Origin: Woeseiaceae bacterium
GTDB taxonomy: Bacteria > Pseudomonadota > Gammaproteobacteria > Steroidobacterales > Woeseiaceae
Direction: 5' to 3'
NCBI GenBank assembly: GCA_030066735.1
Contig: JASJBB010000005.1
Location: 43,740 to 107,739 of the forward strand
Length of the DNA: 64,000 nucleotides
The first letter of the stretch is position 1. The number at the start of each line of letters is the position of its first letter. Below the pieces are notes generated by a model. That model worked only from the letters and a program-made list of their open reading frames with translations, was not told where the DNA came from and searched no databases. Of the stretch, positions 2,907 to 63,708 are shown piece after piece. A program made the translations under genes and the position numbers.

Positions 2907-2965
2907 GGGACGCCTTTCATCGGAGGTAAAGCGCAGCTCGGCGAGCCATGAAGATGAAAGGTCCC
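2907..2965 (-). repeat. Conserved-loop/variable-stem hairpin element, copy A (3' of murI)
   Basis: Arms GGGACgcCTTTCATC / GATGAAAGGTCCC flank the 31-nt loop GGAGGTAAAGCGCAGCTCGGCGAGCCATGAA; loop matches three other copies in the window. Confidence 0.8.
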
Positions 2966-16026: not shown

Positions 16027-18147
16027 ATGAAGAAAATCACTTTATCAATCGCCCTTATCGCCGTAATCGGCGCCGCGGCGTTCGTCCTGCAAGCGAACGA
16101 CCGTATGATCCCCTGGTCGACCAGCGTCTTCGATGCGCCGGCCGATAGTCTTGCCGTTGTGGAACGCGACGTTGCAGGCGAGCGTGCTTCACGTGAGGCA
16201 GCTACCGACGCTTCCGTCGCGGTCGAGCCGACCGCCGATGACCTTTACATGGCAGATGCGGTTGCCAGCTTTTACACGCCGCAGGCTACGCCAGGCGCAC
16301 GCTCAGCGGCGGCGGCCACGACCGACGAACGGCCGGCCCGCAGCGCGCAGGCAGCGGCCATGGCCAAGATGAGCAGCCAGGTAGCCGCGCTGGCGGCTTC
16401 GGGCGGCAACGCGCCGGTCGAGCTCATCGTCAGCTACGACGACTACCCGCAACTGTTCGAAGACGGCCGCATCGAAAGCCTGGGCGGCGAGGTCGTGCGC
16501 CGCTACTCGATCATCGAGCAGCTCGCAGTGCGCCTGCCGGCCGACGCCCTCATTGACCTCGCGGTCGACGACTCGGTCGACCGGGTGTCGCTGGACGAGA
16601 CCGTGCGGGTGACCGCGGCGACCTTGCTGTCGTCCAGCGCGCCCGAATTGCAATCGTCCGCGCTCGCATCGAATCGCCCGGTCTATCCTTCGCCGAACAG
16701 GTCGTTCAACGGCCGTTATATCAACGTCGCCATGATCGACACCGGCGTCGCTTCGCACGTCGACCTGACTGGCCGCGTGCAGCAGTTCAGTTTCCTGGAC
16801 GGCGAGTCCCCGGATGTCGAAATCGACGGCGAGCTTAGCGGCGTTGAATACAACAGCCTGCGGGACGGCTACGGCCACGGCACGCACGTGGCCGGCATCC
16901 TCTCGGCAACCGGCAAGAGCTCCGGCGGCAAATACACGGCGATGGCTACGGGCGCGAACATCCTGTCGCTGCAGGTGCTCGACGACAACGGCCTGGGGCA
17001 GACGTCGGACGTAATCGCCGCCCTCGACTGGCTGCTGCAATACGGCCAGTACTTCGACATTGACGTCGTTAACATGTCGCTCGGCAAGCCCGTTACCGAG
17101 TCGAACACCACAGATCCGCTGGTACTCGCCGTCGAAGCGCTGTGGGACAGCGGCATGGTCGTCGTCGTCGCCGCGGGCAACCAGGGTAACGATGGTTACT
17201 TTACGGTGACGAGCCCGGGCAACTCGCGCAAGGTCATCACGGTCGGTTCGCTGACCGATAACGGCACGGGTACCGACTTTAGCGACGACTACGTGTCGAC
17301 GTTCTCCTCCCGCGGGCCGACGCCGGGTGACTTCGTCGTCAAACCCGACCTCGTCGCTCCGGGCAATCGACTGGTGTCGACGATTCCGAGTTCGTCCACG
17401 TTGGGCGACCTGCTTCCCGACCGCATGGTCGCCTGTTCGATGGGCGACGAGTGCGACGACTATTTCATGTTGTCAGGCACGAGCATGGCAGCCCCGATGG
17501 TCAGCGCCACGGCCGCCCTGATGCTGCAGAAGGACCCGTCGCTGACGCCGGCCACGGTTAAGGCCCGGTTGATGCGCTCGGCGCGCAAGTACGGCCATTC
17601 GCCGATCGACGCCGGCGCGGGACTGCTCGACGTGGATGCCGCGCTCAACGAGGCGAACACCGTGTCCGGCGAAGCGTTGTCGCCGCTGATGCAACAGGAT
17701 CCGGCAACCGGCGCCACGCTGATCCAGGAAACCGGCGTCCTCTGGGGCGACACCATCTGGGGTTCCGGCTACCTCTGGACCGACGGCGGCGGCATCAACT
17801 CCAACGGCTACCTCTGGACCGACGGCGGCGGTATCAACGCCAACGGCTACCTCTGGACCGATGGTGGCGGCATCGATGCCAACGGCTACCTCTGGACCGA
17901 CGGCACGGTGGATGCCAATGGCTACCTGTGGACCGACGGTGGGCTGGTCGCCAACGGCTATCTCTGGACCGACGGTGGCACCGGCGGCGGCCGCATCGCG
18001 GCCAACGGCTTCCTCTGGACTGACGGTGGCGGCATCGGATCCGATGGCTACCTGTGGACCGACGGCGGGGGCACGAACGTCGCGACGTTCTTCGATCCGA
18101 CTGCCGAGAACCCGGAGCTGCTTGACGACGAGCACACGGTCCAGTAA
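16027..18147 (+). CDS. Subtilisin-like (S8) secreted serine peptidase with C-terminal GYLWTDGGG repeats
   Basis: Signal peptide; VAMIDTGVASH (Asp), GHGTHVAGI (His), SGTSMAAPMVSATAAL (Ser). Confidence 0.94.
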   Translation: MKKITLSIALIAVIGAAAFVLQANDRMIPWSTSVFDAPADSLAVVERDVAGERASREAATDASVAVEPTADDLYMADAVASFYTPQATPGARSAAAATTDERPARSAQAAAMAKMSSQVAALAASGGNAPVELIVSYDDYPQLFEDGRIESLGGEVVRRYSIIEQLAVRLPADALIDLAVDDSVDRVSLDETVRVTAATLLSSSAPELQSSALASNRPVYPSPNRSFNGRYINVAMIDTGVASHVDLTGRVQQFSFLDGESPDVEIDGELSGVEYNSLRDGYGHGTHVAGILSATGKSSGGKYTAMATGANILSLQVLDDNGLGQTSDVIAALDWLLQYGQYFDIDVVNMSLGKPVTESNTTDPLVLAVEALWDSGMVVVVAAGNQGNDGYFTVTSPGNSRKVITVGSLTDNGTGTDFSDDYVSTFSSRGPTPGDFVVKPDLVAPGNRLVSTIPSSSTLGDLLPDRMVACSMGDECDDYFMLSGTSMAAPMVSATAALMLQKDPSLTPATVKARLMRSARKYGHSPIDAGAGLLDVDAALNEANTVSGEALSPLMQQDPATGATLIQETGVLWGDTIWGSGYLWTDGGGINSNGYLWTDGGGINANGYLWTDGGGIDANGYLWTDGTVDANGYLWTDGGLVANGYLWTDGGTGGGRIAANGFLWTDGGGIGSDGYLWTDGGGTNVATFFDPTAENPELLDDEHTVQ
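17755..18075 (+). repeat. Intragenic tandem repeat encoding ~8 copies of (A/S)NGYLWTDGGG(I)
   Basis: Seven GYLWTDG and one GFLWTDG unit read from the translation. Confidence 0.92.
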
Positions 18148-35918: not shown

Positions 35919-38213
35919 ATGTATACCCAATGCCCTGAATGCAGCGTTGCCTTCCGCGTAAGTGCGGACGTGCTGAAGATGGCGGCCGGCCAGGTCCGCT
36001 GCGGAGGTTGCGGCGTGGCCTTCAATGCGCTCGAGCACCTGTCCGAATCAAAGCCGGAAGCGCCGCCGATCAGGGAAGAACCGTCGGACCCCGGCCTGCC
36101 GGAACTACAGCCTGACGAGGCCGGCGAGATCGAGGCCGCCGAACCCGAGGCCGACGCGCCGCCGCCGTCAATCTCGGCCGAGCAGAACGCGGCGCTGCTC
36201 AGGACGCTGGACGAGCTGGCCGGCGAAGACGTTCGCATCGAGGACACGGGTGTCGAGTGGCGTGTCGTTGACGACGAGGACGAGCCCGAACCCGAGCCAA
36301 CCGAACCCGAGCCCGAACCCGAACCCGAGCCCGAGCCCGAACCCGAGCCCGAGCCCGAACCCGAGCCGTCCCAGTCTCAGGTCATTGACGAGATGTTGTT
36401 CGACGACAACACGGTGCTGCCCGACGACTTCGACGAGGTCGTCGAAGCGCCCTCGCAACCAAGAGTCGAAGAGGCCCCGTCAACACCGCCGGAGCCCGAG
36501 ATACCGCAGTTCGACCTTGACCTGAGCGAGCCTGGCGAATGGGACGACCTTCTGGGCGATCTGGACGACCAACCCGAGACTGCGCCTGTGGCTGACGACG
36601 TCGACGACGTCGAAGACATCGAAGACATCGAAGACATCGAGGACATCGAGGACCACGACGCCACTGAGTCCGAGCAACCCGACACGCCTCTGGACGTCGA
36701 CACGCAGTTCGAAATCCAGGCCGAAGCAATGGGCATCGACCTGAGCGGGATTCACGAGTCGGTGCACGAGGAACCGGAGTCAGCGGCGGAAACGGCGCCG
36801 GAACCGGACGCGGAACCCGACGACCTCGCGGACACGTCGATCGAGGAAGACCTGATGGCGGCTGCTTTCGAAGTCGAGGCGGCGAAGAAAAATGAGGCCC
36901 TCGATCTCGAAGAGCTTGCCGCCGATGAAGCGCTCGACCTCGACGAATTCGCGGACGATGAGGCGCTCGACCTCGAGGAGCTCGCGGACGATGAGGCCCT
37001 CGACGTCGAGGAGCCTGCTGCCGCAGAGGACCTGCCGCCTGAGGAACCGTTCGCGGATGCGGAAGAGCCAGAGCAGCAGGAGCAGGACGAACAGGACGAA
37101 GTCGCGGAAGACGCCGAGCTGGAGGTCGACCTGCAGGTCGAAGAAGAAGCGGAAATCGAAGATGACGTCGACGACATCGCCCGCGGCTTCGACAACGACG
37201 TCGAACGGGATATCGAGACCTTGTCCATGTCACTCGACGATGACGCGGACGACGGCGTAGCAACCCGGAACGAGGACCACGTCATTCCCGAGATGAGCGA
37301 GGAAGAGAAGACCATCAACATGATGATCGACCAGGAGCTCTTCAATATCGCCGTCGAGGATGAAAACGGATTCGCCTCCACCATCGTGCAGCTGCAGCCT
37401 GACGACGAACTGTTCGAGGACGCCGACACCGACGACGACCCTGACCAGGCCGAAAAAAAGAAAGACAAGAAGAAAGACAAGAAGAAGAAAAAGAAGAAAG
37501 ACAGGGACAGCGCCAGACCCATGCCTGACATGGCTGTCGAGACCATTGTCATGGAGGGCGATCTCGTTCGCGGCGATTCCGACTTTGAGGAGCAGGCGGA
37601 CGAGGAAGAGCGAGCCGTTGCGCCCATCCCGCCTGAAACCACGATCCCGATCAGCCGCGAGAAGGACGACTATGCCCGCCGCCGGGAGACGACGTCTGCG
37701 CCGGCCGGCATGGGCACGTGGGTTGGCATCGTCGTGCTCGTCCTGCTGCTGGCAGTGCAGCTCATCCACCAATCGCGCGAAGCGCTGGCCACCGTGCCGG
37801 CATTCAATTCGGCCATCGGCCCGATCTATCGGCTACTCGGCCGACCTTTGACCCCGGAATGGAATATCGGCGGCTGGCGTTTCGAAGCGACCAAGGGAGA
37901 CACCGACGAGACCGGTGAGCGGCTCACGATTTATTCGCGCGTGGGCAACAATTCCGAAGAACCGCTGCCTTATCCGCTGGTTCACCTCTCGCTAACCGAC
38001 CGTTTCGAGGACGTCATCGGCAGCGCGGTATTGGAACCCGCCGAATACCTTGCCGAGAATGTCGACCCGCGCAAGCCGGTGCCGCCGGGCAGTTCGTTCA
38101 ATGCAGTCATCTCTATCGACTCGCCCTCGCCCGATGCGACCGGATTCAAGCTCAATGTCTGTTACCGCCTGGCCAGCGGGCAGTTGCGCTGCGCCGACCA
38201 CGACTTCAAATGA
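35919..38213 (+). CDS. Zinc-ribbon / DUF3426 protein with very long acidic low-complexity middle
   Basis: MYTQCPECSVAFRVSADVLKMAAGQVRCGGCGVAFNA zinc finger; C-terminal TM and DUF3426-like region; located between prmA and dusB. Confidence 0.88.
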   Translation: MYTQCPECSVAFRVSADVLKMAAGQVRCGGCGVAFNALEHLSESKPEAPPIREEPSDPGLPELQPDEAGEIEAAEPEADAPPPSISAEQNAALLRTLDELAGEDVRIEDTGVEWRVVDDEDEPEPEPTEPEPEPEPEPEPEPEPEPEPEPSQSQVIDEMLFDDNTVLPDDFDEVVEAPSQPRVEEAPSTPPEPEIPQFDLDLSEPGEWDDLLGDLDDQPETAPVADDVDDVEDIEDIEDIEDIEDHDATESEQPDTPLDVDTQFEIQAEAMGIDLSGIHESVHEEPESAAETAPEPDAEPDDLADTSIEEDLMAAAFEVEAAKKNEALDLEELAADEALDLDEFADDEALDLEELADDEALDVEEPAAAEDLPPEEPFADAEEPEQQEQDEQDEVAEDAELEVDLQVEEEAEIEDDVDDIARGFDNDVERDIETLSMSLDDDADDGVATRNEDHVIPEMSEEEKTINMMIDQELFNIAVEDENGFASTIVQLQPDDELFEDADTDDDPDQAEKKKDKKKDKKKKKKKDRDSARPMPDMAVETIVMEGDLVRGDSDFEEQADEEERAVAPIPPETTIPISREKDDYARRRETTSAPAGMGTWVGIVVLVLLLAVQLIHQSREALATVPAFNSAIGPIYRLLGRPLTPEWNIGGWRFEATKGDTDETGERLTIYSRVGNNSEEPLPYPLVHLSLTDRFEDVIGSAVLEPAEYLAENVDPRKPVPPGSSFNAVISIDSPSPDATGFKLNVCYRLASGQLRCADHDFK
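36286..36370 (+). repeat. Low-complexity EP repeat within the DUF3426 gene
   Basis: CCCGAACCCGAGCC hexanucleotide-like repetition encoding (EP)n. Confidence 0.85.
36612..36652 (+). repeat. 9-nt tandem repeat GA(A/G)GACATC encoding (EDI)n
   Basis: Consecutive GAAGACATC / GAGGACATC units. Confidence 0.85.
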
Positions 38214-51714: not shown

Positions 51715-52995
51715 ATGGCCGATAACCATCTGAGCGACCTCAGGTTTGACTCTCTAACGCTGCACGACAACGTTCGGGCAGGTATCCGCGACGCAGGCTT
51801 CGAGTTCTGCACGCCGATCCAGGCATCGACCCTGCCGATTGCCCTCGAACCGCGCGACGTCGCGGGCCAGGCGCAGACGGGCACCGGCAAGACTGCCGCA
51901 TTTCTGATCGCCACGTTCCAGAAATTGCTTGCGTCTACCCCGGACCCCGAGCAACCGAAACAGCCGCGCGCGTTCATGCTCGCGCCGACGCGGGAACTGG
52001 CCATGCAGATCGCGAAAGACGGCGAACTGCTGGGCAAGCACACCGGTTTCAAGATCGGGCTCGCCTATGGCGGCACCGACTATGAAAAGCAACGGCGTAC
52101 GATCGAGGACGGCATCGACATCCTGATCGGCACACCGGGCAGAATCATCGACTACTTCAAACAGGGCGTTTTCAAGCTGAACCAGGTTGAGGTCGCAGTA
52201 TTGGATGAAGCCGACCGCATGTTCGACCTCGGCTTTATCAAGGACATTCGTTACCTGCTGCGGCGACTGCCGCCCCCCGACCAGCGGCTCAACATGCTGT
52301 TCTCCGCCACGCTGTCCCATCGTGTCATGGAACTCGCGTTCGAGCACATGAACGAGCCCGAACTCGTGCGCATCGAGCCCGACAAGGTCACGGCCGACCG
52401 CGTGCGCCAGGCCATCTTTTTCCCGTCGAACGAAGAAAAGCTGCCGCTGCTGGTCGGGCTGATTCGCGAAATGGGAGCGGGCCGCATCATGGTGTTCGTC
52501 AACATGAAGCGGGACGCCGAGCGTGTCGAAGCGACGCTCGAGGCCAATGGCGTGCACGCCAAGGCAATCTCGGGCGACGTGCCGCAGAAGAAGCGCCAGC
52601 GCCTGTTGCTGGATTTTCAGAGCGGCAACCTGCAGGTTCTGATCGGCACTGACGTCGCATCCCGCGGCCTGCACATTCCCGACGTGCAGTACGTCATCAA
52701 CTACGACTTGCCGCAGGATGCGGAAGATTACGTCCATCGCATCGGCCGTACCGCGCGTGCCGGCGCCTCGGGCGACGCGCTGAGCTTCGGCTGCGAATCC
52801 TACGCAATGTCGCTGCCCGATATCGAGGATTACATCGGTCACAAGATCCCGGTCGCGAGCTACGACCCTGCAATGCTGCCCGAACTTGTCAGGCCGCCAC
52901 GCAAGGAGCGCAAAGCCCGCAAGCCGGGTCCGCAGCGCAAGCGGTCCGGAAAACGGCGTCCTCCCCGGCGTCCGCGGGGTCCGAAAAAGGACTAA
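51715..52995 (+). CDS. rhlB: DEAD-box RNA helicase, RhlB-type
   Basis: AQTGTGKTAAF, APTRELAMQI, VLDEADRMFDLGF, SATLSH, HRIGRTAR; divergent from trxA-rho. Confidence 0.93.
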   Translation: MADNHLSDLRFDSLTLHDNVRAGIRDAGFEFCTPIQASTLPIALEPRDVAGQAQTGTGKTAAFLIATFQKLLASTPDPEQPKQPRAFMLAPTRELAMQIAKDGELLGKHTGFKIGLAYGGTDYEKQRRTIEDGIDILIGTPGRIIDYFKQGVFKLNQVEVAVLDEADRMFDLGFIKDIRYLLRRLPPPDQRLNMLFSATLSHRVMELAFEHMNEPELVRIEPDKVTADRVRQAIFFPSNEEKLPLLVGLIREMGAGRIMVFVNMKRDAERVEATLEANGVHAKAISGDVPQKKRQRLLLDFQSGNLQVLIGTDVASRGLHIPDVQYVINYDLPQDAEDYVHRIGRTARAGASGDALSFGCESYAMSLPDIEDYIGHKIPVASYDPAMLPELVRPPRKERKARKPGPQRKRSGKRRPPRRPRGPKKD

Positions 52996-53006
52996 CTCGC
53001 GGGCGC

Positions 53007-53075
53007 GGGCCGGAAGGTGTTTACCTTCATGGCTCGCTGCGCTGCGCTTTACTTCCGGTAAACACCTTCCGGCCC
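53007..53075 (+). repeat. Conserved-loop/variable-stem hairpin element, copy B (3' of rhlB)
   Basis: GGGCCGGAAGGTGTTTACC [TTCATGGCTCGCTGCGCTGCGCTTTACTTCC] GGTAAACACCTTCCGGCCC: 19-bp perfect arms, 31-nt loop. Confidence 0.9.
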
Positions 53076-53079
53076 ACGC

Positions 53080-53742
53080 TCAAACTAGTTCGCGAACCCC
53101 GGCAACGCCGGGGAACTCGCCGTTGTCCCGCACCGGTTCGGTCGTGTCAGGTTCCGTTATTACGACCGATTGGCGGATGCCAAACTCGACCGCGCTGCGC
53201 AAGACGGGGACCGTGTCGTCGACGAATACCGTGGTCTCCGGGTCGAAGCCCTCCTCCTCGCGCAGCGCGTGCCAGAACGCCTGCGTTTCCTTGGCGTGCC
53301 CGTACGTGTGGGAACTGTGGATGCCGTCGAAATACTCGCCGAAACCGAGCCTGTCGTTCTTCAGGTTCAGCGTATCCGGGTGCGAGTTGGTGACAAGCAG
53401 CACCCGTACGTCGGTCGCGCGCACGGTTTCGAGGAAGGCCTGCGCGCCGGGCAGGTAGACGATTCGATGATGCACCTCGCGGTGCAGCTCCAGCACGTCA
53501 AATCCCAGGCGCTCGCTCCAGTGGTCGAGGCAATACCACTCCAGGTCTCCCTGTATCGCCATGTACTTGGCATACAGCCGGTCGCGCGCCACCCGGTACT
53601 CGAGATCGTTGTGTTCGGCGTAGCGGCCGACGACCAGCTCTTTCCAGACGTAAGTATCGAAGGCAAGGTCGAGGATCGTGCCGTCCATGTCGAGCATGAG
53701 CGTCCGGCACCCGGATACGGCCGTTTTGGGATCGAATGTCAC
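53080..53742 (-). CDS. yrfG: GMP/IMP nucleotidase YrfG-like HAD hydrolase
   Basis: TLMLDMDGTILDLAFD; LLVTNSHPDTL; VFVDDTVPVLRSA. Confidence 0.88.
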   Translation of the reverse strand: MTFDPKTAVSGCRTLMLDMDGTILDLAFDTYVWKELVVGRYAEHNDLEYRVARDRLYAKYMAIQGDLEWYCLDHWSERLGFDVLELHREVHHRIVYLPGAQAFLETVRATDVRVLLVTNSHPDTLNLKNDRLGFGEYFDGIHSSHTYGHAKETQAFWHALREEEGFDPETTVFVDDTVPVLRSAVEFGIRQSVVITEPDTTEPVRDNGEFPGVAGVRELV

Positions 53743-53783
53743 TGTTTTATACTTCGCGGCCCCGCTGGTGACCGGATACTGGT

Positions 53784-54584
53784 ATGAACCTCAAGGATAT
53801 GATCAACCCGATCGTCGATCTCGCGATCGCGGCCGGCCATGCAATTCTCGAAGTCTACGCGACCGACTTCGACGTTCAAGAAAAAGGTGACGAATCACCG
53901 CTGACGCAGGCTGATCTCGCCTCTCATCGCCGTATCGTTGCGGGACTGCGCGAGCTGACGCCCGACATTCCGATAATCTCGGAAGAAGAAGGTCTGCCGG
54001 CATTCGCCGAACGCGGCCAGTGGCAACGCTACTGGCTGATCGACCCGCTCGACGGGACCAAAGAGTTCGTCAATCGCAACGGCGAGTTCACGGTGAACAT
54101 CGCGTTCATCGACAACGGCCGGCCGTTGCTTGGCGTCGTCCACGTCCCCGTGCAGGAAAAGACCTACGTCGGCTGCGAGGGTCACGGCTCGGAGCTGCGC
54201 GCAGACGGCGGCACCACGGCGATCAGCGTTGCCGAGGCCAGCCACAGCCCGGTACGCATCGTCGGCAGCCGCTCGCACCGCGGCTCCAGCCTGGATGCCT
54301 TCCTCGAGCAGGTGGGCGGAGCGGACATGGTGCCGATGGGAAGTTCGCTCAAGTTCTGCGTTGTTGCCGAAGGCGGCGCCGACATCTACCCGCGCCTCGG
54401 CCCGACGTCGGAATGGGACACGGCGGCCGCGCAGGCCGTCGTCGAACAGGCGGGCGGCAAGGTCCTGGAGCTCGACGGTAAGCCGTTGTCTTATAACCAG
54501 AAAGAAGACATCCTGAACCCGTTCTTCATCGTCATCGGCGCCGCGGACAGGGACTGGCTGGCGCTGCTCGCGAACGGCGAGTAG
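53784..54584 (+). CDS. cysQ: 3'(2'),5'-bisphosphate nucleotidase CysQ
   Basis: IISEEEG, WLIDPLDGTKEFVNRNGEFTVNIAFI, WDTAAAQAVVEQAGG. Confidence 0.95.
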   Translation: MNLKDMINPIVDLAIAAGHAILEVYATDFDVQEKGDESPLTQADLASHRRIVAGLRELTPDIPIISEEEGLPAFAERGQWQRYWLIDPLDGTKEFVNRNGEFTVNIAFIDNGRPLLGVVHVPVQEKTYVGCEGHGSELRADGGTTAISVAEASHSPVRIVGSRSHRGSSLDAFLEQVGGADMVPMGSSLKFCVVAEGGADIYPRLGPTSEWDTAAAQAVVEQAGGKVLELDGKPLSYNQKEDILNPFFIVIGAADRDWLALLANGE

Positions 54585-54595
54585 CATGGTAGAAA

Positions 54596-54811
54596 ATGAC
54601 CGACAAAGTCGATACAGAATCTTTCAAGAATCTCGAGCGCCTGCGTGAGCTGCGAGTCAGCCATCGTGATCTCGACTACCTGATCGACCGCCTGCAGCAT
54701 GACCCGATGGTCGACCAGCTGCGCATCCGTCGGCTCAAGAAGCGCAAACTGCTCATCAAGGACATGATCGCCGCGCTCGAAAGCGAGCTGATTCCGGACC
54801 TTGATGCCTGA
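54596..54811 (+). CDS. YdcH / DUF465-like small protein
   Basis: 71 aa; SHRDLDYLIDRLQHDPMVDQLRIRRLKKRKLLIKDMIAALE. Confidence 0.82.
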   Translation: MTDKVDTESFKNLERLRELRVSHRDLDYLIDRLQHDPMVDQLRIRRLKKRKLLIKDMIAALESELIPDLDA

Positions 54812-54819
54812 CCTGTTGC

Positions 54820-54894
54820 GGCGGTCCTGAGGGTGCTCAACCTCATGGCTCGCGTTGCTGCGCTTTACTTCGGCTGAACACCCTCAGGACCGCC
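54820..54894 (+). repeat. Conserved-loop/variable-stem hairpin element, copy C (3' of ydcH-like gene, overlapping 3' end of trhO)
   Basis: GGCGGTCCTGAGGGTG...CACCCTCAGGACCGCC 16-bp perfect arms around CCTCATGGCTCGCGTTGCTGCGCTTTACTTCGG. Confidence 0.87.
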
Positions 54895-55806
54895 GGACCC
54901 TGCATCGGGACCAATGTGCGAGTCTCCTCGCCTGCGAGCGAGCTCGATCTGTTTCGCGCGTTCCTCCAGACGGGCGGCGCGGTCCTCGTCGAGCTCACCA
55001 ACGCACTTCGAGCAGGAGATGCCCTCTTTGTAATCGGGTGACGCCAGGTCCTCGGTGCTCAACGGCCGACGGCAGGCGTGGCACTGCACGTAGCCACCCT
55101 CGGCCAGGTCGCGGTCGACGGCAACGCGGGTATCGAACACGAAACACTCGCCATCCCAGCGATTGTCCCCGGCCGGCATCTCCTCGAGATAACGCAGGAT
55201 GCCGCCTTGCAGGTGATAGACCTCGTCGAAGCCGAGCTCCAGCATCAGCGCGGTCGCCTTTTCGCAGCGGATGCCGCCCGTGCAGAACATGGCCAGCGGC
55301 CGGTCTCGAGACTCGGCGGCGAGCTTCTGTGCAAACTCCGGAAACTCCCGAAAACTGTCGGTTTCGGGGTCGATGGCGTTGGGGAAAGTCCCCACCTCGT
55401 ACTCATAATGGTTGCGCGTGTCGATGACGAGCACGTTGGGGTCCTCGATCAGCCGGTTCCACTGGTCGCCGGACACGTAGGTTCCGGTTTTGCGGTGCGG
55501 CAGGATATCGGGACGACCGAGCGTGACGATTTCTTTTTTCAGGCGCACTCGCATGCGACGGAACGGCGGCTCCGTCACGTCGTTCCAGCGCGCCTCGATG
55601 GGTTCGGCCAGGTCCAGGCGTTCTTCGATCCAGGCGAACAGCTGGCGAATGCACGACTCCTCGCCGGTGACCGAGCCATTAAAGCCCTCGGCGGCCACCA
55701 GGATCGTACCGAGCAGCTCGCGCTCCTCGCAGACAGACTGCAGCGCGACGCGAAAACCGGCAGGGTCTTCGAGATCCAGAAAACGATAGAACGATGCGAC
55801 TTTCAC
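54865..55806 (-). CDS. trhO: tRNA uridine(34) hydroxylase, rhodanese family
   Basis: VIDTRNHYEYEVGTFPNAIDP, MFCTGGIRCEKATALML, GGILRYLEE. Confidence 0.94.
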   Translation of the reverse strand: MKVASFYRFLDLEDPAGFRVALQSVCEERELLGTILVAAEGFNGSVTGEESCIRQLFAWIEERLDLAEPIEARWNDVTEPPFRRMRVRLKKEIVTLGRPDILPHRKTGTYVSGDQWNRLIEDPNVLVIDTRNHYEYEVGTFPNAIDPETDSFREFPEFAQKLAAESRDRPLAMFCTGGIRCEKATALMLELGFDEVYHLQGGILRYLEEMPAGDNRWDGECFVFDTRVAVDRDLAEGGYVQCHACRRPLSTEDLASPDYKEGISCSKCVGELDEDRAARLEERAKQIELARRRGDSHIGPDAGSGGPEGVQPK

Positions 55807-58292
55807 TGGTCCAACTGATCCTCGGCTACCGTCAGCGACAGGATACTGTGGCGAATCTGCTCGCCGAGGACGAGACGCGCGTCGGTACCGATATCGACGA
55901 TGTCATCGTCGAACTCCAGCAGACCATCCTCGTTGCGCCGTAACACGTCCTGTTCCTGCAGTTTACGAATGAAATCGTGAAACAGCGTTTTATTGAAAAA
56001 GTCCGGGGAATGCAATTCGTAGATCATCGACAGTCGCTCGGCGCTGAGCTGGCACATCTGCTCCAGCCGCGCCCGTGTCAGCGTGCCACTGCCGTGCTGC
56101 ACCAGGATCGCGATCACGAGATAGAAACGTTGCAGCATGGGCACCATGGACTGGCCCAGCATCATCAGCTGGTAGGCGTCGGCCGAGCCCGCACGCGGAC
56201 GCTCCAGCACCCGGCGGCGCTTGTGCCGGATCAGCAGGCCTTGCGCAACCAGTGCGTCGACGGCGTCTCGCGTGACATCATCGATCTCGTCCTCGGGCCA
56301 CTGGAGACAAAGCTCCTTGCGCATGAACGGGTAAATCAGGCGAATCAGCCGCTGCAGCTCGGCGAGGGGCAGCTCGCGGCCCTGGATAAAACAGCACGCG
56401 ACGGACGCCGGCACGGCGAGCAGGTGCAATATGTTGTTGCGGAAGTAGGTGAGCAGGACGGCCGTGCTTTCGGTCATGTGGATCACGTCGCCCATCGGGT
56501 GTGACGTGCGGCTGATTGCATTGAGCTTTTCGCCATGCGCGATGATCTCGTCCGGGCTCCAGTCCGGCACCGTCACCGAGTCGGAGTAGTGGAAGTTCCG
56601 CAACAGGTCCAGGCTCAGCTGCAGCTGTCCGCGCAGTTCCGCGGCGCCGATGGTCTGCTTGGGCGTGGCAAGCAGGACATAGGCGAGCAGGCTGATCGGC
56701 GTTACCGCGGCGGCCGCGTTGATGCCGGCCATGATCTCGCCACCGAGCTTTTCGACGACCTCATTGAGCCACGGCGGCCGTTCGCCATTGCCGCTGGGCA
56801 GGTTGCGCCAGTCCGGTTGCACGGTATCCAGCATATGGTCGAGCTCGATCGGCTCGCCGATATTGACGTACACCCGACCGAAGTTCTCGCGCAGGGATTT
56901 GATCGACTGCACAAGCCCCAGCAGGGACTCCTTGCGCTTTTCGGCGCCGCCCAGCTCGCTGATGAAAGAGCCGCCCTCGATGAGCTTCTCGTAGCCGAAG
57001 TACACGGGCACGAACACCACGGGGCGCCGGGGATTCTGGATGTAAGACCCGACCGTCATGGCGAGCATGCCGCCCTTCGGCGACAACAGCCGACCCGTGC
57101 GACTGCGGCCACCCTCGACGAAATACTCGATCGTGTAACCACGAGTCAGCAGTTGATTCAGGTAAGCATCGAACACGGCTGCGTACAGCCGGTTGCCGCG
57201 AAAGCTGCGGCGCAGGAAGAACGCTCCGCCACGCCGCAGGATCGGGCCGACGATCGGCATGTTCAGATTGATACCCGCCGCGATATGCGGCAATTGCACG
57301 CTCTGTTCGTAGCAAATGTAGCTGAGCAACAGGTAATCGAAGTGGCTGCGGTGGCAGGGCACGTACACGACGACCTTTTCCTTGGCCACCTCTCGCAGTC
57401 GCTCGGTATGGCCCAGCTCGATGCCGTCGTAGATCTGGTTCCACAACCTGCGCAGGATGCGCACGGCGATACGGATAGCCGGCCACGAAATGTCAGCCGC
57501 AATCTCCATCACGTACTTCTGCACCCTGCGCTCGGCGGCGGCGAGCTTCTTCGGATCGTCCCCGGCTTCCGCCTCGATGACGCGCCTGACATTCGGCGAC
57601 AATGCCACGAGCCTCGCGATTCTTCGCCGGTTGGACAGGTCCGGGCCGACGGTTGCGGTCCGCCGCTTGCGGAAGTGCACGCGCAGGATGCGAGAGACCT
57701 TGCGGAAGGCTATGTCGGCCGTGAGTTTTTCCTGGATGATCGAGTTGAGCGGCAGTGCGTGGCTAAACCACATCAGCGTATTGCGGCCGTGCAGCAGCGT
57801 GGCGAAAAACTTGCGTGTGCGGCTTGCGACATCCCAGTTCTCGGCAAAGAACAACTTGAATGCAGAGTCTTCACGGTCGGGAGATCGCCCCCAGTAGATG
57901 GCGACGGGAACAAGCTGCAGGTCCTCCGCACTGCCGTCGCCTGCCTCGACCAGGCTGCGCAGCCGTCGCGACCCGCCGGTTACGGGCCGCCGGAACAGGA
58001 AGCCCTTGAAAGGCCGCAGCACAACGAGACGTCTCGAAAAGCGCTTGCCACAGTATTCGAAAGATTCTCGCGGCGATGGCAGCCCGTGCCGCGCGCAGGC
58101 GCGCTCGAGGGCCAGTATGTCAGCGAGGCCGCCGGTCTCGAGGACATAGCAGATCTGCGCGTCCGTATCGGCGTACAGCTCGGCCGGCGAATCCGGCTGC
58201 ACGGTCGGCCGCGCCCAGAGCGAGAACACCTTGCCGGCCAGCCAGTAGAGGGGCCGGAAGATGAACCGGGCGATGTCCATCAGCCAGATCAT
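55803..58292 (-). CDS. plsB: Glycerol-3-phosphate 1-O-acyltransferase
   Basis: VYVPCHRSHFDYLLLSY, GAFFLRRSF, FVEGGRSRTGRLLSPKGGML, FVPVYFGYEKL. Confidence 0.97.
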   Translation of the reverse strand: MIWLMDIARFIFRPLYWLAGKVFSLWARPTVQPDSPAELYADTDAQICYVLETGGLADILALERACARHGLPSPRESFEYCGKRFSRRLVVLRPFKGFLFRRPVTGGSRRLRSLVEAGDGSAEDLQLVPVAIYWGRSPDREDSAFKLFFAENWDVASRTRKFFATLLHGRNTLMWFSHALPLNSIIQEKLTADIAFRKVSRILRVHFRKRRTATVGPDLSNRRRIARLVALSPNVRRVIEAEAGDDPKKLAAAERRVQKYVMEIAADISWPAIRIAVRILRRLWNQIYDGIELGHTERLREVAKEKVVVYVPCHRSHFDYLLLSYICYEQSVQLPHIAAGINLNMPIVGPILRRGGAFFLRRSFRGNRLYAAVFDAYLNQLLTRGYTIEYFVEGGRSRTGRLLSPKGGMLAMTVGSYIQNPRRPVVFVPVYFGYEKLIEGGSFISELGGAEKRKESLLGLVQSIKSLRENFGRVYVNIGEPIELDHMLDTVQPDWRNLPSGNGERPPWLNEVVEKLGGEIMAGINAAAAVTPISLLAYVLLATPKQTIGAAELRGQLQLSLDLLRNFHYSDSVTVPDWSPDEIIAHGEKLNAISRTSHPMGDVIHMTESTAVLLTYFRNNILHLLAVPASVACCFIQGRELPLAELQRLIRLIYPFMRKELCLQWPEDEIDDVTRDAVDALVAQGLLIRHKRRRVLERPRAGSADAYQLMMLGQSMVPMLQRFYLVIAILVQHGSGTLTRARLEQMCQLSAERLSMIYELHSPDFFNKTLFHDFIRKLQEQDVLRRNEDGLLEFDDDIVDIGTDARLVLGEQIRHSILSLTVAEDQLDQ

Positions 58293-63619: not shown

Positions 63620-63708
63620 GTATGCCCCGATTCGGGACGTTTCTCACCGGCAGTAAAGCGCAGCGCAGCGAGCCATGAAGGTGAGGAACGTCCCGGGTCG
63701 GGGCATAC
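63620..63708 (-). repeat. Conserved-loop/variable-stem hairpin element, copy D (3' of DUF885-like gene)
   Basis: 29-nt arms GTATGCCCCGATTCGGGACGTTTCTCACC / GGTGAGGAACGTCCCGGGTCGGGGCATAC (three departures, all G:T wobble on the plus-strand transcript) around a 31-nt loop. Confidence 0.9.

Follow-up and report, generated by a model that had tools for sequence, protein, structure and literature searches.

The 64,000-nt stretch of DNA analysed here (the window) contains a pair of convergent genes, trhO and a 71-codon ORF for a DUF465 (YdcH-type) protein, with a hairpin, copy C, at their facing 3′ ends (Table 1). The 24-nt arms of copy C are 92% complementary and lie 29 nt apart; its DNA fold has a z-score of −5.6, and 0 of 200 shuffles were equally stable. 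The plus strand has two A.C mismatches, which are G.T/G.U wobbles on the minus (trhO-sense) strand, where 24 of 24 positions pair in an unbroken helix. An earlier note, made from the sequence alone, had placed the right arm in the trhO reading frame and the left arm past the ydcH-like stop, and the ORFs agree: right-arm sequence CACCCTCAGGACCGCC (54879-54894) is translated in the ...GGPEGVQPK* end of TrhO, the trhO stop codon falls within the conserved hairpin loop, and the left arm lies 3′ of the DUF465 stop. In the 64-kb window, trhO is the only convincing gene that terminates in a hairpin loop; a second gene that seemed to run into a loop, at copy A, was rejected since that ORF is antisense to a 548-aa ORF.

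Table 1. Genes and hairpin features in the window.
Feature	Position	Strand	Basis
Copy A, same hairpin family as copy C	2907..2965	+ (the GTAAAGCGC strand)	Inverted repeat, loop motif
Copy B, same hairpin family as copy C	53003..53079	- (the GTAAAGCGC strand)	Inverted repeat, loop motif
DUF465/YdcH-type small protein, convergent with trhO	54596..54811	+	PF04325, 52.9 bits
Left arm of copy C, non-coding, past the DUF465 stop codon	54819..54842	+	Inverted repeat, fold
Conserved apex of copy C; minus strand reads GTAAAGCGCAGC-AAC-GCGAGCCATGA	54843..54868	-	Loop comparison among copies
trhO TAA stop codon in the hairpin loop	54865..54867	-	ORF, comparison with relatives
trhO, tRNA uridine(34) hydroxylase	54865..55806	-	NCBIfam NF001133, 291 bits against a cut-off of 170
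Added TrhO tail codons DAGSGGPEGVQPK	54868..54906	-	TrhO ends of 50 relatives
Right arm of copy C, translated within the TrhO tail	54872..54895	-	ORF, inverted repeat
Copy D, same hairpin family as copy C	63620..63708	+ (the GTAAAGCGC strand)	Inverted repeat, loop motif

Copy C is a member of a dispersed family of intergenic hairpin repeats found in Woeseiaceae-type gammaproteobacteria of marine sediment, each unit comprising arms of ~20-30 bp and a conserved apex. The 3.3-Mb assembly of the window genome contains 19 occurrences of the loop TCATGGCTCGCNNNGCTGCGCTTTAC, four of them in the window, and 0 matches to its reversed control pattern. There are thus at least 19 copies of the hairpin in this genome, and more than 200 across Woeseiaceae-type MAGs. 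With two search patterns, the loop was found in 26 genomes of the same GTDB genus, where copy number ranges from 0 to 54 per genome, and in 0 of 31 genomes from other genera of the same order; a scan of GTDB contigs located it mostly in MAGs named Woeseiaceae or Gammaproteobacteria, with a few Coxiellaceae or Myxococcota. Carriage by phages or plasmids was rejected: the loop motif is absent from all of 2.9 million viral contigs, and a plasmid search with the trhO region returned only weak local similarities. Rfam gave no match near the gathering score for positions 52000-56000 of the window, which include copies B and C, and a search of the open-access literature, with most subscription journals outside its scope, found no published description of such a repeat family. 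A sister loop, GCTCGCTNCGCTCGCTTTAGGC (L360, L361), is present at 10 places, only in three related genomes (G034, G083 and G103), and in two loci (L060 of genome G038, and L284) an extra mini-hairpin (CCCCACGAGGGG; CCCGTCAAGCGGG) interrupts the loop at an identical position, where GAGC meets ATGA.

Did trhO supply an arm of the hairpin, or did the hairpin supply the end of trhO? The earlier note had proposed that copy C could discriminate between these mechanisms, and the TrhO C-termini of 50 genus members bear this out in favour of insertion over copying. Genomes that have no hairpin at the trhO slot end TrhO in ...HIGPKP, HIGPK, HIGPKS or similar (HIGPK/R/S). Among these trhO ends, a GPEGVQ-coding arm is present only in the window genome (G000; ...GGPEGVQPK) and in G038 (...SGPEGVQQK), both of which have the hairpin with the stop codon in its loop. 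In two further genomes (G026 and G095) a hairpin of the same orientation occupies the slot past trhO's own stop and is wholly non-coding. A palindrome older than its loop, which the note had allowed for, finds no counterpart: no relative has a single arm alone, or both arms without the loop, at the trhO slot. Because neither arm exists without the loop, and relatives with an empty slot end in HIGPK/R/S, these alignments show the hairpin to have arrived as a unit that lengthened TrhO by a tail and a TAA stop. That the trhO arm was instead the template and the non-coding arm its inverted copy would suit a window genome in which only one arm is coding, and is nonetheless scarcely credible and, within the 50 trhO ends sampled, refuted, since the GPEGVQ arm never occurs there apart from the hairpin and the same-slot hairpin of G026 and G095 lies entirely outside trhO.

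The hairpin entered immediately 3′ of the stop of trhO in a common ancestor of G038 and the window genome; with that stop lost in their lineage, translation passes through one arm and ends at the TAA supplied by the loop, as the comparison shows. Copy C illustrates how a repeat can lengthen a conserved enzyme of tRNA modification, to which it contributes one arm and a stop codon. The trhO-slot hairpins of G000/G038 and of G026/G095 may or may not go back to one insertion: the TrhO tree needs five changes, and the arms of the two pairs agree at only 70%; G020, the sister of G000 (support 91/71), holds another kind of hairpin in the slot.

Is pairing preserved as the arms diverge? When the four same-orientation trhO-slot hairpins (G000, G038, G026 and G095) are aligned, pairing is seen in 95.7% of cells and variation on both sides in 9 of the 24 pairs. 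The covariation score is 0.50, whereas shuffles give 0.22 and slid controls 0.13 at most; a third-codon-position bias of the G000-G038 arm changes (four of six stem changes) is suggestive only. Across the 195 family copies with a clear stem, 56-98% of cells at stem positions 1-23 are Watson-Crick, compared with 22-59% when right arms are shuffled among copies, and the median stem score is 16, compared with 3 (maximum 6.5) for matched random flanks. The loop is the conserved part: the arms of random copy pairs have a median identity of 46%, inner arms have by eye a weak consensus (GGGACATTnCTCATC / GATGAGnAACGTCCC), and outer arms differ from copy to copy. Common arms at different sites were seen for a few copies within a single genome (L004/L007, 0.87), so the arms move with the loop. 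In 13 orthologous pairs, of which five are inverted, the arms are still homologous, and 28 positions differ in both arms. The alignments thus show arms that keep changing by matched substitutions and are not copies of trhO.

If pairing is maintained, which strand has to pair? Read on the ATGGCTCGC strand, the mismatches are mostly A.C (322), C.C (91) and T.C (86), against 29 G.T, 2 G.G and 11 G.A; on the other (GTAAAGCGCAGC) strand the same mismatches read overwhelmingly as tolerated G.T/U, G.G and G.A. By copy, A.C exceeds G.T in 146 and the reverse holds in 4 (p 3e-38, a value computed over copies that are not independent). Arm composition, assessed by shuffling, predicts an A.C:G.T ratio of only 578:393, and the ratio is still 154:27 after the five most variable positions are dropped. 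It is alike in every gene context (convergent, 136:11; the two co-directional arrangements, 70:5 and 41:4; divergent, 23:3), which makes the bias a property of the element and not of the host transcript. Damage of C that favours one strand could imitate part of the bias; counter to this account, an A-T pair was the origin in 9 of the 31 G.T cases that are informative.

The apex carries the same asymmetry. On the GTAAAGCGCAGC strand, 188 of 208 copies have GNA as their apical triplet, with C, A, T or G as N, and longer loop variants extend a mini-stem below it; copy C, in which the triplet is AAC, is therefore an atypical family member. GNA triloops are unusually stable in single-stranded DNA and occur in RNA too, so that the triloop is a pointer, but no proof, to DNA as the folded form. 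A micro-ORF in the loop (ATGGCTCGC..., MARCAALYFR) was dropped by reasoning, since GNA on the other strand leaves its middle codon free to vary and its stop depends on the arm. From the mismatch types and the GNA triplet, both read on the GTAAAGCGCAGC side, we infer that the folded single strand GTAAAGCGCAGC-GNA-GCGAGCCATGA is the form under constraint. Because the bias does not follow host transcription, the maintained strand is probably single-stranded DNA, whose folding might serve mobility or some function tied to replication; the maintained form may also be an RNA transcribed from the element. This would be a rare case in which mismatch types alone reveal which strand of a DNA repeat must fold, independently of host transcription. 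Taken as a whole, the account of unit insertion, TrhO extension, matched arm change and a constrained folded single strand is, in our judgment, probably correct.

How does this family compare with known folded repeats? A REPIN consists of two inverted conserved repeats around a less conserved spacer; here the layout is reversed, with a conserved centre and free arms. Recognition of a folded single strand with free arm sequence is also a known mode, that of integron attC sites; the hairpin family resembles them in this respect, but attC conserves foot boxes and not the apex, the attC R box GTTRRRY is found at the foot of 1 of 195 copies, and no arrays were seen for the hairpin family. The alternative that survives best, while still unlikely, is that these hairpins are an ordinary REP/REPIN-type mobile repeat moved by an unseen host RAYT. 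Like REP and REPIN elements, they are short, dispersed, extragenic and strand-specific hairpins that vary widely in copy number between genomes; compensatory changes are known from REPIN spacers (PMC3116915), and REP is recognised strand-specifically as folded single-stranded DNA (PMC8266576). However, REP carries a conserved four-base motif, usually GTAG, on the 5′ side of the hairpin foot (PMC8266576), whereas here it is the apex that is conserved, and GTAG adjoins the foot in only 14 of 195 copies on the GTAAAGC strand and 19 of 195 on the other, against a background of 2.3%; this small excess may come from TAG stop codons adjoining the foot. The conserved palindrome of REP is likewise missing from arms as dissimilar as those described above. 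A RAYT/Y1 transposase was rejected as mobiliser: Y1_Tnp genes are equally common in non-carriers and carriers (16/26 against 32/47, p 0.61, over 73 genomes of which the carriers are partly incomplete), and no hairpin copy lies in any of 30 Y1_Tnp loci. As the REP features tested fail, the family is not filed with REP/REPIN, of which it might, by analogy only, be called an inside-out relative.

A bolder reading, which we offer tentatively, is that the hairpins represent a novel type of bacterial repeat in which one DNA strand, once folded, is recognised by its conserved GNA-triloop apex, with arms that are free to vary while the strand pairs, and with gene-end slots that are kept for long while orientation flips and arms are rewritten. 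The larger interest of the family lies in this inside-out design and in the strand signature; the family also separates three mechanisms that are usually lumped, namely inverted copying, selection on RNA and mobile single-stranded DNA.

Could the arms be made and kept by inverted copying at the DNA level, with no selection on the fold and the loop as a fixed cassette subject to the known spacer inversion? Published work credits template switching with making arms alike and inverting spacers (PMC8604942) and with generating hairpins (PMC8794818), and the quasipalindromes that it generates resemble this family in their matched arm changes and in inversion of the centre between orthologues. Loop orientation is indeed random at orthologous slots (51 pairs same, 46 inverted; both orientations in 22 of 32 shared slots), although most pairs also fit re-insertion, and in the trhO-ydcH slot of G083 (L073) and G103 (L075) the same hairpin has its centre inverted between 10-bp outer arms (GGCGGCCAGC / GCTGGC(C/G)GCC), with arms that are 98% identical once normalised to the loop. 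Yet homogenisation by template switching has no strand preference and predicts symmetric mismatches, not 322 to 29; it predicts neither GNA triplets on one strand nor a conserved loop; and no empty site with a lone arm was found. The strand bias argues against the pure form of this explanation, which we consider improbable, and together with the conserved, repeated centre it points to a maintained element. The idea implied in the earlier note, that inverted copying produces the arms incidentally at every site, gains no support as the main cause: empty sites lack the whole hairpin, the arms have a weak consensus across the family, some copies in one genome share arms at different sites, and DNA copying alone predicts neither compensation in orthologous arms nor strand-specific G.T/U tolerance. 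Within a maintained, folding element, template switching may nevertheless contribute to keeping the arms alike and could invert the loop; inversion between orthologues might equally reflect recombination between the arms or re-insertion.

An RNA element at mRNA 3′ ends, a terminator or decay barrier whose pairing is selected in transcripts of the neighbouring genes, is about equally improbable. The RNA folds are stable, and the hairpins markedly prefer the space 3′ of stop codons, usually starting at the stop codon itself (99 copies lie between convergent genes, 79 between co-directional and 12 between divergent ones). In this, they resemble intrinsic (Rho-independent) terminators, which are also GC-rich hairpins 3′ of stop codons and between convergent genes, but which have a T-tract and not a conserved 29-31 nt loop common to many loci. 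Intrinsic termination was rejected because there is no T-tract past the stem on either strand (at least five T in eight at 7 of 390 ends; mean T fraction 0.24, against 0.21 in the background). Moreover, G.U tolerance stays on the same element strand even where the neighbouring genes transcribe the other one (the 70:5 context), and among co-directional copies this opposed orientation outnumbers the other (50:29).

Slots are often shared between species: 15 of the 19 copies in the window genome lie in slots also filled in another species. At most shared slots, however, arm similarity does not exceed that of random pairs, which leaves two options, repeated use of the slots or rewriting and flipping of the arms in place. 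The 13 homologous-arm pairs suggest that in-place change may occur at least sometimes, with re-insertion of a sister copy as another possibility. Orientation set by replication was rejected, as the GC skew of the flanks is unbiased (positive in 106 of 203).

The trhO-ydcH slot also houses other repeats. In G032 (L338) it holds a hairpin whose loop differs (CTTCACTCGAACCCCCTTTAACTCGCTCAG) but whose inner arm is similar (GTATTTATC / GACAAACAC), perhaps from a sister family that has a different apex, and in G012 (L064), G031 (L081) and G090 (L085) it contains more hairpin-like inserts with ATTAAGTAAG-type or similar loops. REP-like palindromes, TAGGAGC...GCTCCTA or GAGCGCTTCTCGAAGCGC, fill the slot in G020 (L059), G034 (L068) and G003 (L079). 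Gene ends thus seem to be reused by several kinds of repeat. Elsewhere in the window, at 17733-18079 and 36268-37511, repeats lie within apparent coding sequence, as 39-nt units around GGCTACCTCTGGACCGACGGCGGC and as acidic or lysine-rich stretches of low complexity.
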